Translations under genes and position numbers: made by a program | Shown here: positions 18,673-25,915 of the stretch, piece by piece | How positions within the stretch are numbered: the stretch's first letter is position 1 | Layout: every line of letters starts with the position of its first letter | The notes under the pieces: model-generated | What the model was told of the DNA's origin: nothing | Databases searched by the model: none | What the model saw: only the letters and a program-made list of their open reading frames with translations | NCBI GenBank assembly: GCA_000209465.1 | Contig: GL890593.1 | Span: 1 to 64,000, forward strand | Length of the DNA stretch: 64,000 nucleotides | Source: Lachnospiraceae oral taxon 107 str. F0167 | GTDB lineage: Bacteria; Bacillota; Clostridia; Lachnospirales; Lachnospiraceae | Direction: 5' to 3'

Positions 18673-19701
18673 TTATCTGCTCTGTGTCCAAACACCGCTG
18701 CCGTCTACATAGTAGCGATTGTTATCAACCCACTGATTTGTAAGCATCTTACCAAGATTGCTGTTATTCTCTGTACTGAGCCAATACCACTTACCTGAAT
18801 ATGGGCTCTTAAGCCAACCGGTTACCATATAACCTCTGTTATCAAAATAGTACCAGTTACCGTTTATCTGCTGCCAGTTATTTGTTGTATATGTTCTGTC
18901 AGCATTGATATACCACCAGCCTACATTGTCCTTTAACCAAGCACCTGTGCCTGAACCTGAACCGCTTGGTGAACCGCCTGAACCTGTCTGACCGCCTAAG
19001 TTTGCCAAAACATCTTCATCTACATCAAATTCATCAGATTCTGTCCATTTACCCTTAGAACCGTTGCTTGCTATAGCACGAATCTTTACAGTATAGTTAC
19101 CCTTACCATTCTCACGAATCTTGCTACGGAAATCATAGCTTGTAGCTGTAGTTGAGATAGTGTCCTTGATTACATTGTTACGATAAAGCTTTACTTCATA
19201 TTGCTTTGCATAACTTGCACCGTCCCATGTAATAATAGGACTGTCATCATCGCCCCAGGAGATATCACTTACTTCAAGACCGCCCTCGTCACCTGAACTG
19301 GTCTTTGGAAGAGTTACTGTGATAGACATATTACCGCTGCTTGATGAAACTTTGGTAATAGTAGCACCCTTGCCGGTCTTATCCTCAAGTGTAACATTAC
19401 CTGCCGGTGTTCCCTTAAAAGTAAAATCACTATCAGGTTTTACCTTTAATGTAACCTTAGGCTTTTTGCCGTAATCGGTGTTTGTAACAGATGAGACTGT
19501 AACACCGTCAACACCTGTGCTATCACTGTCTACATCAATATTACTTGTACTCATATTAGGTGCAAGATCATAATTTATACTGATCTTTACATTCTGTACA
19601 ACTGTCTTTGTGTTCTTCGCAAAAGCTATACCAGCCATTCCAAGTATCATGGAAGCTGTTAAAACTACGGAAGCCATTTTCTTTAAATGTTTTCGTATCA
19701 T
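18673..19701 (-). CDS. secreted cell-wall-binding repeat protein
   Basis: The protein is 342 residues from ATG 19701, which follows GGAGG by 6 bp; the longer frame to 19782 has no site. It begins with a signal peptide (basic MIRKHLKK, hydrophobic core, cleavage near AFA). Two beta-rich regions follow, the second fibronectin III-like (ISWGDDDSPIITWDGASYAK). After a Gly/Ser linker the C-terminus has choline/cell-wall-binding repeats: VGWWYINADRTY, WQQINGNWYYFDNRGYMVTG, WYWLS and NRYYVDGSG. It is probably exported and attached non-covalently to wall polymers; the ligand is unknown. Confidence 0.82.
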   Translation of the reverse strand: MIRKHLKKMASVVLTASMILGMAGIAFAKNTKTVVQNVKISINYDLAPNMSTSNIDVDSDSTGVDGVTVSSVTNTDYGKKPKVTLKVKPDSDFTFKGTPAGNVTLEDKTGKGATITKVSSSSGNMSITVTLPKTSSGDEGGLEVSDISWGDDDSPIITWDGASYAKQYEVKLYRNNVIKDTISTTATSYDFRSKIRENGKGNYTVKIRAIASNGSKGKWTESDEFDVDEDVLANLGGQTGSGGSPSGSGSGTGAWLKDNVGWWYINADRTYTTNNWQQINGNWYYFDNRGYMVTGWLKSPYSGKWYWLSTENNSNLGKMLTNQWVDNNRYYVDGSGVWTQSR

Positions 19702-20026
19702 TAGTTCCTCCATTCCGCAGGTCTCCCTGCTGAAAAAAATTATTTTGTATTTGTTATGCTTATATTCTAAAATACTTTTCAAATAAAATATAGTCCTTTA
19801 GACTTAAGTTTATCTTACTATATTGTAACTAATTTTGAATTTCCGTGAAAATAAAGGAATAAAAATTGAAGAATAACAGAATATTATTTTGAGTAATATT
19901 TTGTGCTGTTTTTTATAAGAATTATGTAATTATTATAGATATAGTACAAGAAAATTTGTGCGAATTTATGGAGGCATAAAACATGCTCTACTACAAAATA
20001 AATGCCTATTCTTTAAAATAAGCTAC

Positions 20027-20083
20027 TTGATTTATTTTACAAAATGAGGTATAACTATAAACATAGTTAGGTTAACCTAACTA
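20027..20083 (+). promoter_or_regulatory. promoter with DtxR-family operator for the metal-uptake operon
   Basis: TTGATT (20027-20032) and TATAAC (20050-20055) with 17-bp spacing form the promoter. A perfect 20-bp palindrome, TAGTTAGGTTAACCTAACTA (20064-20083), covers the expected transcription start. Its core TTAGGTTAACCTAA is the classic box of DtxR/IdeR/SirR-type metal repressors, so metal-loaded repressor would block initiation. The repressor is probably the one encoded at the end of this same operon. The rest of the 19702-20119 gap is AT-rich and holds the divergent surface-protein promoter. Confidence 0.85.
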
Positions 20084-20119
20084 AATAAATTAAATTACCT
20101 TTTATCAGGGGGAGAGATT

Positions 20120-21124
20120 ATGTTTAAAAAAAGATTAAGTATACTTATGGCAGCCATGGGTGTGGCATTTTCACTTGTTGCATGTTCAGGAGCTAAAACT
20201 GCCGATACAAAGAGTGCCGATACAAGCAGTGAAGAAACCAAGGCTGTGGAGGAAACTACAAAATCCGAGGCAAAGTCTGAAGGTACAGATAAAAAGAATG
20301 TGGTGGTAACTACTTCATTTTTGCAGGATATGGTGGAACAGCTCGCAGGAGATACTGTAAATGTGGAACTTATAATACCTGCCGGAGAGGATCCGCATCT
20401 TTATGTGGCAAAGCCTGAGGATTATACAAAGTTAAGTTCTGCGGATCTTACTCTTTATCACGGTCTGCATTTTGAGGGAAAGATGGTGGATGCACTGGAA
20501 GCCGGAGGAGAGTCGGTAAGCAGGGATTTTCCTAAAGATCGTATAGGTACAATGGATGAAGACGGAGAGATTATCACCGATCCTCATTTTTGGTTTGATA
20601 TAGATTTGTACAAAATGGCAGTGGAGGCTGCAGGTACATCTCTTGAAAATCTAAATCCCGAATACAAGGATAAATATGAGGAGAATAAGGTCAAATACCT
20701 GGATGAGCTTACAAAGCTTGATGAGTATGTAAAGGAAAATATATCTTCCATACCTAAGGAGAGCAGGTATCTTATAACACCTCATGATGCCTTTAATTAT
20801 TTTTCAAGGGCATATGATATAGAGGTTAAGGCTCCTCAGGGTGTGAGCACAGAGTCGGAGGTGGCAAATCAGGATATACAAGAGACTATTGATTTTATAG
20901 TGGAGCATAAGATCAAGGCGATATTTGCCGAGTCTACCACAGATCCCGCGCGTATGGAAAAGCTGAAAGAGGGTGCGGCAGCCAAGGGAGCGGATGTAAA
21001 GATAGTAAGCGGTGAAGGAAATGAATTATTCTCAGATTCATTGGCTCCAAAGGGGCAGGATGGAGATACATATATTGATATGTATAAGCATAATGTAAAG
21101 CTTATTACCGAGAATTTAAAATAG
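20120..21124 (+). CDS. metal ABC transporter substrate-binding lipoprotein (Mn/Zn/Fe, ZnuA/TroA type)
   Basis: The 334-residue protein has a lipoprotein signal (Cys 22 after SLVA) and a Glu/Lys/Thr-rich linker, then the cluster A-I binding fold. Candidate ligands are His 93 (EDPHLY), His 114 or 117 (LYHGLHFEG), His 156 (TDPHFWFD) and an acidic residue in IFAESTTDP. There is no His-rich loop, which argues against a dedicated zinc protein and leaves manganese or iron as good options. It is first in the operon, right after the DtxR-type operator. Confidence 0.88.
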   Translation: MFKKRLSILMAAMGVAFSLVACSGAKTADTKSADTSSEETKAVEETTKSEAKSEGTDKKNVVVTTSFLQDMVEQLAGDTVNVELIIPAGEDPHLYVAKPEDYTKLSSADLTLYHGLHFEGKMVDALEAGGESVSRDFPKDRIGTMDEDGEIITDPHFWFDIDLYKMAVEAAGTSLENLNPEYKDKYEENKVKYLDELTKLDEYVKENISSIPKESRYLITPHDAFNYFSRAYDIEVKAPQGVSTESEVANQDIQETIDFIVEHKIKAIFAESTTDPARMEKLKEGAAAKGADVKIVSGEGNELFSDSLAPKGQDGDTYIDMYKHNVKLITENLK

Positions 21125-21155
21125 TAATTAAATTCGGCTTAAATAGACTTTTAAC

Positions 21156-21254
21156 GGTTCAGGTATGCAGACATGATATTTAAAATTTACATCCGATTTG
21201 TAATTTCTGTAAGCTTGCAGAATGTTACAGGCTGTATTTCTGCACACCTGAACC
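21156..21254 (+). other. long intra-operon stem-loop between binding-protein and ATPase genes
   Basis: GGTTCAGGTATGCAG (21156-21170) pairs with CTGCACACCTGAACC (21240-21254) at 14 of 15 positions. Inside, CTGTAA and TTACAG form a second stem. There is no T-run. It fits an mRNA processing or stability element that lets the binding protein be made in excess over the membrane parts. Confidence 0.65.
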
Positions 21255-21297
21255 ATAGTTTATTACCGTTACATCGCAGATGCAAAATGGAGATAAT

Positions 21298-22008
21298 ATG
21301 GAAAAAGTATTGATACATGTGGAAGATTTTACAATGGCATATACCGATATTCCTGTAATATGGGATATGGACCTGGATATATATGAGGGAAGTATTACCG
21401 CCATAATAGGACCTAACGGTGCCGGAAAATCTACTCTTATGAAGGGGATACTCGGGCTTATGAAGCCTATTTCCGGTAAGGTAAGTATTATGGGTAAGTC
21501 TTATAAGGAGGTATACAAGCAGATTGCTTATATACCACAGACCACCACGGTAAATTGGAATTTTCCCACTACAGTTATTGATGTGGTGACTATGGGAAGA
21601 TATGCAAGTCTCGGCCCTTTTAAAAGGGTAAACTCGTTTGAAAAGGAAAAAGCTTTAGAAGCATTAAAAAAAATGAAAATGGAGGAATTTGCAAACAGGC
21701 AGATTTCCGAACTCTCAGGGGGACAGAAACAAAGGGTATTCATAGCAAGGGCGATTGCTCAGAATGCCCTTATTTACTTTATGGATGAACCTTTGGCAGG
21801 AGTTGATAAAAAAACCGAGAATATAATTATAGAAACCATGAGGGAGTTTAAAAGAGAGGGAAGGACAATAATTGCCGTACACCATGACTTAAACACCCTA
21901 TGTGAGTACTTTGACCATGTGGTAATGGTCAATAAACAACTTATAGCAAGCGGAAAGACCGTGGAAACCTTTACAAATGAAAATATAGCGGCAACATATG
22001 GGGAGTAG
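21298..22008 (+). CDS. metal ABC transporter ATP-binding protein
   Basis: The 236-residue ATPase (ATG 21298, 5 bp after GGAG; the ATG at 21280 is poorly placed) has Walker A GPNGAGKST, Q-loop AYIPQ, signature LSGGQKQRV, Walker B LIYFMDEP and switch AVHHD. It belongs to the Mn/Zn/Fe cluster A-I import family (MntA/ZnuC/TroB). It is cytosolic, bound to the two permeases that follow 3 bp downstream. Confidence 0.92.
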   Translation: MEKVLIHVEDFTMAYTDIPVIWDMDLDIYEGSITAIIGPNGAGKSTLMKGILGLMKPISGKVSIMGKSYKEVYKQIAYIPQTTTVNWNFPTTVIDVVTMGRYASLGPFKRVNSFEKEKALEALKKMKMEEFANRQISELSGGQKQRVFIARAIAQNALIYFMDEPLAGVDKKTENIIIETMREFKREGRTIIAVHHDLNTLCEYFDHVVMVNKQLIASGKTVETFTNENIAATYGE

Positions 22009-22011
22009 ACT

Positions 22012-22899
22012 ATGAATATAAGTATGATTACACAGTATTCATTTATTGTGGTTGCAATAGGAACAATGCTGCTTGCCATGGCAACCGGGATAGTTGGAAC
22101 CATAAGTATATTAAAGGGACAAAGTTTGATTGGAGATGCGGTAGGTCATGCATCATTGCCGGGAATTATTCTGGCTTTTATGATATCCGGCAGGAAAAGT
22201 TCCATTATTTTAATGCTTGGGGCAATAGCCGCAGGAGTAATCGCCTTTATTCTTATACAGATTATTGCGGAAGGTTCAAAGATAGAGGCGGATACTGCAA
22301 TGGCGGTTATTTTATCCGCAATGTTCGGTCTTGGAATGGTATTAAAGAGTCATATTCAGGGAAATCCGAAGTATCAGGGGGCATCACAATCCGGACTTGC
22401 AAGTTATATATTCGGGCAGGCGGCATATATACTAAGGGAAGACGTTTATATAATATTGACGGTGTCTATTATATCGCTGGTTTTATTTGTGATTTTTTAC
22501 AAGGAAATAAAGGTATATGTATTTGACACGGTATATGCCTATACGATAGGAATAAATTCAAGGCTTATATCACTTCTTATAATGATAATCACTATGATAC
22601 TTATAGCAGCCGGTCTAAAGGCGGTGGGAGCTATTTTAATAAGCAGCATGCTTATAACTCCGGCGGTTACCGGCTTACAGTGGAGTAAAAGTTATGAGAA
22701 GGTACTGTTTATAGCAGCCTTTACGGGAGCTGTGTCGGCATTTCTTGGAACATTTATAAGCAGTGCGGTAAAGGGATTTTCTACAGGACCAAGCATTATA
22801 CTTATCATGTCAATCATTGCACTTTTATCGGTGCTGTTTGCACCTAGGGGCATTGTCAGGATGATTTTAAATATAAGAAGGATGAGGGGTGGAAAATGA
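22012..22899 (+). CDS. metal ABC transporter permease 1
   Basis: The 295-residue membrane protein has eight to nine hydrophobic segments and the family signatures GDAVGHASLPGI near the N-terminus and KAVGAILISSMLITPA near residue 205. It is of the ABC-3 (ZnuB/TroC/MntB) type. It is preceded by GGGGAG. Its TGA overlaps the ATG of the next gene (ATGA), so the two permeases are translationally coupled. Confidence 0.9.
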   Translation: MNISMITQYSFIVVAIGTMLLAMATGIVGTISILKGQSLIGDAVGHASLPGIILAFMISGRKSSIILMLGAIAAGVIAFILIQIIAEGSKIEADTAMAVILSAMFGLGMVLKSHIQGNPKYQGASQSGLASYIFGQAAYILREDVYIILTVSIISLVLFVIFYKEIKVYVFDTVYAYTIGINSRLISLLIMIITMILIAAGLKAVGAILISSMLITPAVTGLQWSKSYEKVLFIAAFTGAVSAFLGTFISSAVKGFSTGPSIILIMSIIALLSVLFAPRGIVRMILNIRRMRGGK

Positions 22900-24665
22900 T
22901 CGAATCTTTATATATACTTATAATAACCTCTCTTGCCTGTGCCGTTTTGGGTGTATTTTTGGTACTTAGGAGACTTTCCATGGTATCGGATGCCATTTCA
23001 CATTCGGTGCTCCTTGGAATAGTAATAGGATACTTTGTTACAAAGGATATAGGCAGTGTTTTTTTAATAATAGGTGCAAGCCTTTTCGGTGTTCTGACAA
23101 CATTTTGTATAGAGCTTCTTATAAAAAGTAAAAGGATTACCGAGGATGCTTCGGTTGGAATAATTTTTCCTTTATTTTTTTCGGTAGCTGTTATACTTAT
23201 TACAAGATATGCAAGAAATGTTCATCTGGATACGGAGATAGTTTTAATAGGTGAGATTATACTTGCTCCGCTTCACAGAATAAATTTTTGGGGATTTAGT
23301 CTTCCAAAGGCTTTGGTGCAGATGAGCTTTGTGCTTTTGATAAATATAGTATTTATAACCGTGTTTTTCAGGAAATTAAAAATCAGCTCATTTGATCCGG
23401 TGTATGCGACTGTGGCAGGAATTGCAGGAGCAGTTTTACATTACAGTTTTATGGCATTGGTATCATTTACTGCCGTATCCGCATTTGAATCTGTTGGAGC
23501 AATACTTGCGATTGCATTTTTTATATCACCGGCTGCAAGTGCATATCTGATATCAAAAGATTTAAAAATAACAATACTTCTGGCATGTGTATATGCGGTT
23601 TTTAATTCATTTATAGGATATTTTCTTGCAGTAAAATTTAATGTATCTATGTCCGGAATGTGTGCAGTGGTTTCAGGTATAACATTTTTAATAACCATGT
23701 CTGTATATCCGGGAGGGATATTTACAAGAATGATAAGATATATAAATAACAGGAACCGTTTCAGCAGGGAACTCTTGATTTTACATATAGACAATCATTC
23801 GGGTAAGCAGGAAGCACTTGGAGAACTTGGCTACAGCACCATAAGGCAGCATATCGGTTGGTCTGACAGAAAACTTAAATATGTTTTGGACAGGCTTATA
23901 AAAAAGGGATATGTTTACAGGGCAAAAGAAAGGGGGGTATACAGTCTAACAGAAACAGGGAAGAAATTAAGTGATGAGATAAAGCTTCATTACGGACTTA
24001 TGGCAGGGGAAAATGATATGGCTAAGATAGACACCGGTAGAGATGATTATATATTGGCGATTTATGAGCTCATTGAAAAGCAGGAAAATGCAACAAATAA
24101 AAAGATTGCGGACATTTTGGGTATTAAGGCAGCATCTGTAAGCGAGATGTTAAAGAAGCTTGTTGAGGAAGGTGATGTATACACCGAAAATAAAAGTATT
24201 TGTTTAACCGAAAGTGGAAAAAAGAGAGCCAGAGCTTTACTTACCAAGCATAGACTATGGGAGCTGTTTTTGGTGGAGTATCTGGGATATTCATGGAAAA
24301 ATGTACATGAGGATGCAAAGGCATTGGAATATGTCACTTCAAACGGGTTGAAGGACAGATTGAATGAATTTTTAAATAAGCCCAAACATTGTCCGCATGG
24401 AAATGAAATATATGAGAATCATCCGGATGTGGATAAGCTGAAAAAACTTTCTGAACTTTCAAAAGGAGCAAAGTGCAGGCTTCATAAGGTTGAGGATGAC
24501 AGGGATTTACTTGAATATCTTGTAGAAAAGAAGGTAAATTTGGGGGATGAGTTTATTATAAAGGATATTGATAATTTTGACGATTCGGTGCTTGTAAGCT
24601 CTGAAAGTGAAGATAAGCATATTGCGGGAAAGGCTGCAGTAAGGATGATGGTGGAGATTATTTAG
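22896..24665 (+). CDS. metal ABC transporter permease fused to DtxR-family repressor (YtgCR-like)
   Basis: The 589-residue protein has three parts. Residues 1-285 are an ABC-3 permease with SMVSDAISHSVLLGI and FESVGAILAIAFFISPAAS. Residues about 291-365 are a winged helix (STIRQHIGWSDRKLKYVLDR, then LIKKGYV). Residues 375-589 are a complete DtxR-type repressor: RDDYILAIYELIE, ADILGIKAASVSEMLKKL, TKHRLWELFLVEYLG, VHEDAKALEYVTS, CPHGNEI and an FeoA/SH3-like end. Ancillary-site ligands (His, Glu of KHRLWE; His of VHEDA) are kept, but the usual LEH is LEY, so one primary-site ligand is changed. Chlamydia YtgCR has the same fusion and is cleaved to release its repressor. Confidence 0.92.
   Translation: MIESLYILIITSLACAVLGVFLVLRRLSMVSDAISHSVLLGIVIGYFVTKDIGSVFLIIGASLFGVLTTFCIELLIKSKRITEDASVGIIFPLFFSVAVILITRYARNVHLDTEIVLIGEIILAPLHRINFWGFSLPKALVQMSFVLLINIVFITVFFRKLKISSFDPVYATVAGIAGAVLHYSFMALVSFTAVSAFESVGAILAIAFFISPAASAYLISKDLKITILLACVYAVFNSFIGYFLAVKFNVSMSGMCAVVSGITFLITMSVYPGGIFTRMIRYINNRNRFSRELLILHIDNHSGKQEALGELGYSTIRQHIGWSDRKLKYVLDRLIKKGYVYRAKERGVYSLTETGKKLSDEIKLHYGLMAGENDMAKIDTGRDDYILAIYELIEKQENATNKKIADILGIKAASVSEMLKKLVEEGDVYTENKSICLTESGKKRARALLTKHRLWELFLVEYLGYSWKNVHEDAKALEYVTSNGLKDRLNEFLNKPKHCPHGNEIYENHPDVDKLKKLSELSKGAKCRLHKVEDDRDLLEYLVEKKVNLGDEFIIKDIDNFDDSVLVSSESEDKHIAGKAAVRMMVEII
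24005..24665 (+). CDS. possible internal start giving free DtxR-family repressor
   Basis: Inside the fusion gene an in-frame ATG at 24018 follows AGGGGA (24005-24010) by 7 bp. The product, 215 residues beginning MAKIDTGRDDYILAIYELIE, starts exactly where normal free DtxR/MntR proteins begin. A separate soluble repressor could therefore be translated from the same mRNA and act on the operator at 20064-20083. This is inferred from sequence alone; proteolysis of the fusion is the other route. Confidence 0.55.
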
Positions 24666-24844
24666 ATAAAATTATATATTTTTATATAAAAGTTTTTATA
24701 AAGGGGAGAGTGGATTTATAGGGATCTCTTTGAAAAGAATATATAGGTACTTTTTATAAGAAACAAAAATCTAGACAATACCAAGAATTCTGTGGCGAAT
24801 GGCACAAAGAATAGAATAAAGAAAATACAATGGGAGTGATAAAA

Positions 24845-25915
24845 ATGGATAAAAAAGATTTGCCTATAACCGGGGATAGTGAATATATAAAAATGCTTGA
24901 GAAAATAAAAATATCATATAGAGACAGGCAAATTAAAGCAGCAGTTTCCGTAAATTCCGAAATGCTAAAGTTTTATTATAGCTTAGGAGAAGAAATCATT
25001 AGCTTAAAGGCGGAAAGCAGATGGGGAAGCGGATTTTATAAAAAACTAAGTTCAGATTTGCAAAAGGAAATTCCAAATGTTAAAGGGTTTTCTATTACTA
25101 ATTTAAAATATATGAGAAAATTTTATGAAATGTATTCTCCGATAAATCGTTCACAGCTTGTGGATGATTTACGAACATCAAAAGTCGGTAGAGATTTTGA
25201 TATGATTTTTAGTATACCCTGGGGGCACCACAGATATATTATGGATAGATGTGAAGGAGATTTGAATAAAGCTTTTTTCTTTATATCTAAAACATTAGAA
25301 AATAGCTGGAGTAGAGCTGTGCTTTTAAATTTTTTGGATACAGACCTGTTTGATAGACAAGGAAAGGCAATAACAAATTTCATAAATAATTTGCCGGCTA
25401 CACAAAGTGATTTAGCCAATGAAATAACAAGAGATCCATATAATTTTGACTTTATAGCTATCAGACAAAATTATGATGAAAAAGAACTGAAAGATGCTTT
25501 GATGGATAATATTCAGAAGTTCTTGTTAGAGCTGGGAACGGGCTTTGCATTTGTAGGTAGAGAATATAGGCTTGTTATCGGGAACTCTGAAGAATTTATT
25601 GATATGCTGTTCTATAACATTAAGTTGCATTGCTATGTGGTTGTGGAGGTTAAGGTATCTGCATTTAAACCTGCGGATATAGGTCAACTCGGAACCTATG
25701 TAACATCTGTAAATCATGTATTAAAAGGTGATGGAGATAATCAGACAATAGGTCTTTTAATCTGTAAGACCAAGGACAATGTATTGGCAAAATATGCTTC
25801 TGAAAGTTCAAGAGAACCTATTGGAATTTCAGAATACCAATTACAAAACCTAATTCCTGAAAGTTTTAAAGGAGCATTGCCAAGTATAGAAGAAATTGAA
25901 AATGAACTAAAATAA
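24845..25915 (+). CDS. YhcG/DUF1016 family PD-(D/E)XK nuclease
   Basis: The 356-residue protein (ATG 24845, 8 bp after GGGAG) has the DUF1016 N-terminal domain (KAAVSVNSEMLKFYYSLG, then GFSITNLKYMRKFY and SIPWGHHRYIMDR). The C-terminal nuclease half has FAFVGREYRLVIG, EEFIDMLFYN and VVVEVKVSAFKPADIGQ, i.e. the Asp and Glu-x-Lys of PD-(D/E)XK. Homologues are stand-alone or sit in restriction-modification and mobile loci, and are thought to cut or repair DNA. Here it is alone. It has its own ribosome site and converges on pckA, sharing a terminator. Confidence 0.88.
   Translation: MDKKDLPITGDSEYIKMLEKIKISYRDRQIKAAVSVNSEMLKFYYSLGEEIISLKAESRWGSGFYKKLSSDLQKEIPNVKGFSITNLKYMRKFYEMYSPINRSQLVDDLRTSKVGRDFDMIFSIPWGHHRYIMDRCEGDLNKAFFFISKTLENSWSRAVLLNFLDTDLFDRQGKAITNFINNLPATQSDLANEITRDPYNFDFIAIRQNYDEKELKDALMDNIQKFLLELGTGFAFVGREYRLVIGNSEEFIDMLFYNIKLHCYVVVEVKVSAFKPADIGQLGTYVTSVNHVLKGDGDNQTIGLLICKTKDNVLAKYASESSREPIGISEYQLQNLIPESFKGALPSIEEIENELK

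Follow-up and report, generated by a model that had tools for sequence, protein, structure and literature searches.

A troD-troR fusion gene at the end of a tro-type metal-uptake operon in Lachnospiraceae oral taxon 107

Organization of the locus

The stretch of DNA analysed here (the window) comprises 64,000 nucleotides of Lachnospiraceae oral taxon 107 str. F0167, positions 1 to 64,000 of contig GL890593.1, and carries a troABCD-like metal-uptake operon closed by a fused gene, troD-troR. The order is that of tro operons, namely binding protein, ATPase, permease, permease and repressor, with the last two components encoded in a single open reading frame (ORF). The genes and the domains of the fused product are as follows:

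20120..21124, plus strand, troA-like substrate-binding lipoprotein, ZnuA family, 334 amino acids
21298..22008, plus strand, troB-like ATPase; the listed ORF runs from 21280, and the Shine-Dalgarno sequence is better matched at the ATG at 21298
22012..22899, plus strand, troC-like ABC-3 permease, 295 amino acids
22896..24665, plus strand, troD-troR fusion gene, 589 amino acids, ATG start, single ORF, last gene of the operon
22899..23702, plus strand, ABC-3 permease domain, residues 2-269 (Pfam ABC-3, 1e-43)
23721..24017, plus strand, TroD-type winged-helix tail, residues 276-374 (from comparison with unfused permeases, profiles and structure prediction)
24018..24662, plus strand, TroR part, residues 375-589; its in-frame ATG at 24018 is a candidate internal start
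24042..24191, plus strand, DtxR DNA-binding domain, residues 383-432 (Pfam Fe_dep_repress, 2e-12)
24207..24413, plus strand, DtxR metal-binding and dimerisation domain, residues 438-506 (Pfam Fe_dep_repr_C, 5e-26)
24444..24656, plus strand, SH3/FeoA-like domain, residues 517-587 (Pfam, 4e-5, barely above the cut-off)

The ORF and the Pfam assignments bear out an earlier note on this DNA, in which one gene was read as an ABC-3 permease, a winged helix and a full DtxR-type repressor. The nearest solved relative of the permease part is the manganese ABC permease 7kyo/7kyp (E 5e-24), and a basic stretch, assigned by eye, follows the last membrane segment. The ABC-3 domain is followed by a TroD-type winged helix of about 90 residues (approximately 292-365), to which Pfam HTH_27 aligns at 292-355 with a value of 6e-5 for the protein as a whole and no single stretch significant. 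Residues 375-589 contain the Fe_dep_repress helix-turn-helix (HTH), Fe_dep_repr_C and SH3/FeoA domains in the order of the three-domain (SloR/TroR) type of DtxR protein; the best matches in the Protein Data Bank (PDB) are SloR (E 2e-34), MtsR (E 2e-31) and ScaR (E 2e-29).

Structure prediction from six near-identical sequences gave poor models, with mean pLDDT values of 54.5 and 43.0. HTH-wing elements are predicted at residues 313-365, in a block where pLDDT reaches 84. The two HTH regions are the only usable parts of the models and therefore no domain arrangement is claimed; the Foldseek matches shown merely repeat the DtxR assignment.

Distribution and origin of the fusion

A search for the 589-residue architecture across the family, proposed in the earlier note as a check, finds it in the genus and in two further genera, eight genomes in total. 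Full-length fusions are present in all six genomes searched of the genus (Lachnoanaerobaculum), including L. saburreum DSM 3986 (L034), with 98% protein identity, and in G185 (88% identity) and G244 (63%), which represent two other genera of the same family. Fusion state was scored at loci whose DNA was inspected. Loci L034-L038 correspond to G634, G633, G088, G622 and G635, respectively, and since L036 is identical to G088 the nine fused sequences represent eight genomes. Among the matches listed, full-length hits occur in 4 of 299 family and 4 of 392 order genomes, and in the window's own genome only among the 391 class and 398 phylum genomes; these samples overlap, and the searches were run at E 1e-25, that of the family at 0.001. 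A frameshift or stop codon masked by sequencing error had been raised as grounds for rejecting the fusion. The gene is uninterrupted in all nine sequences and full length in all six members of the genus, which argues against such an error.

Where does the fused protein come from? In Treponema denticola and several Bacillota troD is a gene of its own with troR next to it, from which it follows that the 589-residue protein combines TroD and TroR across the former boundary of the two genes. The two overlap by 1 nt in G907 and G753 and by 4 nt in G953 and G853, and are spaced by 10 nt in G1201 and 33 nt in G970; in G1217 and G1328 more distant, MntR-like proteins are encoded after troD. A 509-residue open frame in G970 was considered as a second fusion and rejected, the DNA showing stops between the genes of an unfused pair. 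Among 34 annotated loci seven are fused and 15 have a dtxR gene directly before troA. In a second set of 20 loci a repressor gene follows troD in eight. The fused genes group together as a single clade whether the tree is built from TroR or from TroD (support 100/99 and 99/99, respectively); some sequences in these trees (G332, G422, G072) are truncated or sit on long branches. The stop between troD and troR was probably lost once, in the common ancestor of Lachnoanaerobaculum and the two related genera.

The winged helix had been regarded as special to the fusion. This view does not survive the comparison, as the same tail is carried by the second permease, of 364-405 residues, in 18 of the 27 unfused loci and again by unfused permeases among the second set; TroD of T. 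denticola, at 366 residues, is of a length that fits. Considered as a possible remnant of an older permease-DtxR fusion, the tail resembles the DtxR HTH in profile alignment (hhalign 94%, E 9e-8, 47 columns), its best PDB profile match is MntR (E 1e-4), followed by weaker winged helices including MarR (E 0.002), and its Pfam matches are scattered over winged-helix families.

The operator

Three elements are assigned ahead of troA:

20027..20032, plus strand, -35 box TTGATT; CTTGATTT is invariant in 8/8 fused operons
20050..20055, plus strand, -10 box TATAAC, 17 nt after the -35 box; TATA is kept in 8/8 fused operons
20064..20083, plus strand, predicted DtxR-type operator, the perfect 20-bp palindrome TAGTTAGGTTAACCTAACTA, with the core TTAGGTTAACCTAA at 20067-20080

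The perfect 20-bp DtxR-type palindrome is as the earlier note described it; its placement over the promoter needs correction, since it begins 8 nt after the -10 box and would overlie the transcription start, not the -35 and -10 elements. The promoter scanner, which accepts only -10 boxes ending in T, does not list this promoter, and its count of promoter-like sites in 19750-24850 shows no excess (19 against 21.4 in shuffled sequences).

Two observations make a chance palindrome unlikely. The 14-bp core is the sole such site in the 3.29-Mb assembly at 0 or 1 mismatch, and TTAGG-N4-CCTAA stands in register behind the same -35 and -10 boxes in all eight fused operons. At two mismatches the core is found in three further places, compared with 20 per strand for a control pattern. 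A 14-mer identical to the core is described in PMC13379313 as a designed one-dimer DtxR site with an apparent Kd of 5.5 nM in the presence of cobalt. With a core that is unique in the genome, conserved with the operon and identical to a design known to be bound by DtxR, the TroR part most probably regulates the operon that encodes it and hardly anything more, as far as sequence can indicate. The domains and the operator at the start of the operon also support the proposal that a permease here bears the likely repressor of its own operon.

In 21 other upstream regions exact half-sites occur in five (G953, G970, G099, G480 and G340) and near matches in others, with nothing close to the operator in some (e.g. 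G1201, G853, G319, G443). Elsewhere in the window's own genome TTAGG-N4-CCTAA is present in two places, both as TTAGGAAAACCTAA. These palindromes (L049:1501-1514 and L050:1501-1514) may be operators or terminators; by eye, one lies just past a flavodoxin-like ORF and the other between two ORFs, ahead of a rhomboid-like one.

The metal-binding site

The TroR part is classed with DtxR by its domains, and from this we infer activation by metal. Metal-site residues were compared over 44 DtxR-type sequences, with DtxR rows above 1e-4 left out. The ancillary site is kept in all eight fused genomes as H452, E456 and H471 (H79, E83 and H98 in DtxR numbering). In place of the canonical primary site (M/D/N10, C/E102, E105, H106) the window's protein has K475, E478 and Y479. 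That LEY replaces the usual LEH was correctly noted earlier, the residues being E478-Y479; as the chief departure it yields to K475, a larger change. The lysine, at the C102/E99 position, occurs in all eight fused genomes and Y479 in seven, G244 having K-E-H.

LEY was considered as a mark of fusion and discarded, because the fused protein of G244 has LEH and free proteins have LQY (G907, G753) or LQS (G1201, G970). Among free TroR proteins encoded after troD the primary site is degenerate in G907 (L132) and G753 (L133), with K-Q-Y, and is S-Q-S in G1201 (L136) and N-Q-S in G970 (L135), the ancillary site remaining intact; G953 and G853 keep D-E-H, and the MntR-like proteins of G1217 and G1328 keep E-E-H. 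The losses being shared by free proteins, the departure characterises certain TroR proteins whether or not they are fused. The comparison thereby singles out a group of free and fused TroR proteins in which the primary metal site is partly lost and the ancillary one kept.

The genome encodes, at locus L033 (G000:C1:20436-23603), a second DtxR-type protein of 121 residues and two domains, with the usual EH in an IEH motif. The gene lies behind an ORF that, by eye, resembles a P-type metal ATPase.

Which form of the protein is the repressor?

The overall reading that we prefer, and hold to be about evenly balanced between right and wrong, is of a tro operon with a fused troD-troR gene that represses itself through the operator, the DNA-binding form being at least in part a free, internally started TroR. 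The metal-loaded TroR part would dimerise on the single operator over the transcription start and shut the operon, as the domains, the operator and its conservation suggest. The form that binds DNA would, at least partly, be a free protein of 215 residues made from the old troR start, the ATG at 24018, and the full-length product would be a TroD permease with a tethered repressor tail.

The evidence for such a start lies at the seam between the two parts, where one further feature is assigned:

24005..24010, plus strand, Shine-Dalgarno-like AGGGGA, separated by 7 nt from the internal ATG; no stronger than a random synonymous choice

The ATG at 24018 (Met375) is the position at which free TroR proteins begin. 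Met375 and the sequence MAKIDT are invariant in the nine fused sequences, with five of the six preceding residues variable. A purine-rich site precedes the codon in every fused gene: AGGGGA in the window, GAGAGGA in G244, and AAGGGA in congeners other than the closest relative of the window. The separate troR of G907 and of G753 has its Shine-Dalgarno sequence (AGGAGG and AGGGGG, respectively) within the 3′ end of troD, in the same placement as the site in the fused gene. The calculated duplex with the 16S end at codon 375 has an energy of -6.3 to -10.5 kcal/mol in the nine sequences, comparable to the starts of troB (ATG 21298, -6.4) and troC (-7.3); those of troA (-10.1) and troD (-12.3) are stronger except in G244. 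Codon 375 ranks 1-4 among the 12-18 internal ATGs in seven sequences. Codons 371-385 contain no synonymous differences in the pairs window/L035, window/L036 and L034/G185 (fixed-window p approximately 0.001); over 365-385 the reduction in synonymous divergence reaches nominal significance only, with fixed-window p values of 0.001-0.013.

Several results weigh against this interpretation. When all in-frame ATG, GTG and TTG codons are counted, codon 375 ranks only 1-6 of 35-48, and its score is matched at 1.4 to 12% of all codon positions (seven sequences). The Shine-Dalgarno sequence does not rise above random synonymous codons, given residues 368-374, in synonymous resampling, and so shows no sign of selection (p 0.76 for the window, 0.21 for L038, 0.27 for L035 and 0.36 for G244). 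Low synonymous divergence is not significant gene-wide (p 0.15-0.76 in five pairs without G244), and the dip is weaker in two L038 pairs (0.013) and absent against G244. With two primary-site ligands replaced (K475 and Y479), activation by metal could be altered or lost. Chlamydia, moreover, solves the same problem by cleavage. Given the synonymous, ranking and divergence controls, we favour internal initiation as the way in which a free repressor would arise, but do not regard it as proved.

Could a protease free TroR from a gene that makes only the full-length product, as with YtgCR of Chlamydia? There YtgR is freed from YtgCR during infection, C-terminal products appear in Escherichia coli also, and in both models of the present protein two helical domains predicted with more confidence are linked by a poorly predicted stretch (residues 364-380 or 366-380). 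We consider cleavage improbable here, because all nine sequences keep MAKIDT in the linker, which would not be required of a floppy cut site, and unfused relatives start TroR themselves, so that a protease is unneeded. Less improbable, though still unlikely in our judgement, is that the whole fusion protein, anchored in the membrane, acts as the repressor, its TroR domains pairing across permease subunits, binding the operator from there and coupling the state of the transporter to transcription. One clear operator target in the genome would suit such a local regulator, a membrane-anchored LacI is offered as an analogy for full-length YtgC in a 2017 review, and the fusion has been retained in eight genomes; yet a free autorepressor would have a single target too, and the sequence retains what a free TroR would need. 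That TroR is no more than a passenger tail on TroD, a neutral accident with residual activity in an operon governed by, for example, the second DtxR-type protein L033, would accord with the existence of that gene and with the partial loss of primary-site ligands. It seems to us highly improbable, as the TroR part is 61 to 88% identical across genera with its ancillary site intact and the operator is conserved in step, in 8/8.

To return to internal initiation, the persistence of an apparent old TroR start signal inside the fused gene is the reason for thinking that one gene may make two proteins. Every mRNA would then be translated into the permease that bears a repressor and also into a separate repressor, in a ratio set by translation and not by a protease. 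We advance this tentatively, at somewhat less than an even chance. If true, tethered copies could compete with or titrate free repressors, such that repression would report the number of transporters.

Other features of the region

Between troA and troB, which are 155 nt apart, lies a further element:

21142..21256, plus strand, strong imperfect hairpin (fold z -4.2 for 21125-21300)

In G634 the gap measures 156 nt and in G244 127 nt, against 5 nt in G185 and the remaining four congeners. The hairpin was considered as a repeat element and rejected, there being one copy only in the assembly; an Rfam scan of 19700-25000 gave no family at the gathering score. Directly downstream of the operon is a gene for a YhcG/DUF1016 PDDEXK nuclease-like protein (24830-25915). 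On the minus strand a divergent ORF (18673-19782) encodes a secreted protein, the C terminus of which resembles, by eye, cell-wall-binding repeats.

Comparison with known systems

YtgCR of Chlamydia, from which YtgR is released by cleavage, was rightly named as the precedent. In both systems a single ORF encodes a metal ABC permease with a DtxR-type repressor behind it, as part of the uptake operon under that repressor's control. They differ in that ytgD follows YtgCR, whereas the fused permease here is the last gene and the last permease, and in that Chlamydia has a WWW codon motif while no WWW occurs in the 589-residue protein. A Firmicute fusion with an extra winged helix is confirmed, but it is not new as a kind: the 2017 review reports orthologous permease-repressor fusions from 11 phyla, and another type occurs in the same phylum.

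That other type is represented by L152, L153, L154 and L155 (G1015, G1186, G1368 and G1061, respectively), from GC-rich DNA (71-77%). As in the window, a metal-uptake operon contains a permease that continues into a winged helix and a DtxR metal-binding domain. The differences are a single winged helix (judged by eye), retention of LEH and the gene order ATPase, fusion, binding protein; there is one permease gene within the 8 kb examined, and the proteins have 509-639 residues (an 878-residue open frame in L153). YtgCR is not known to have an extra winged helix. Between the TroD winged helix and the HTH found in L152-L155 the likeness is unconvincing (10%, E 0.003), in an alignment that included one degenerate row, L156. 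A long open frame like that of G1015 is present in G1099, and at L156:2761-4086 (G1268) the first permease, of 441 residues, carries at its C terminus a winged helix together with a DtxR-like domain that is degenerate and weakly matched (E 9e-4).

The tro operons of Treponema denticola and T. pallidum share the order A-B-C-D-R, with the repressor last in the operon that it controls; troD and troR are separate genes there and fused here. TroR of T. denticola is a manganese- and iron-dependent repressor of the tro operon (PMC2628430) and has an SH3-like domain, as does the fused protein. By published description its length of 222 residues and that of TroD, 366, sum to 588 against 589 here, a comparison of lengths only. 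TroR of T. denticola has N10 and a glutamate at the C102 position, where the fused protein has K475, and the promoter oligonucleotide used for that species carries another palindrome. SloR, ScaR and MtsR are free proteins with the primary site E-E-H as opposed to K-E-Y.

Among the literature matches listed, by title and start of abstract, none concerns this fusion, and none combines Lachnoanaerobaculum with DtxR, or YtgR with ‘internal start’, in a search that had most subscription journals outside its range. The comparisons place and explain the fusion, as genes separate and adjacent in relatives, joined apparently in one event, with a candidate ancestral start kept. They also separate two things that the architecture confuses, the winged-helix tail of the permease itself and the repressor. 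The question posed by YtgCR, whether the repressor is cut off, separately translated or active while tethered, becomes testable in free-living bacteria and with E. coli reporters. What sets this fusion apart from the known systems is its composition of TroD and TroR, which gives it two winged helices, together with unfused relatives from which its origin can be read and a possible start signal at the seam.

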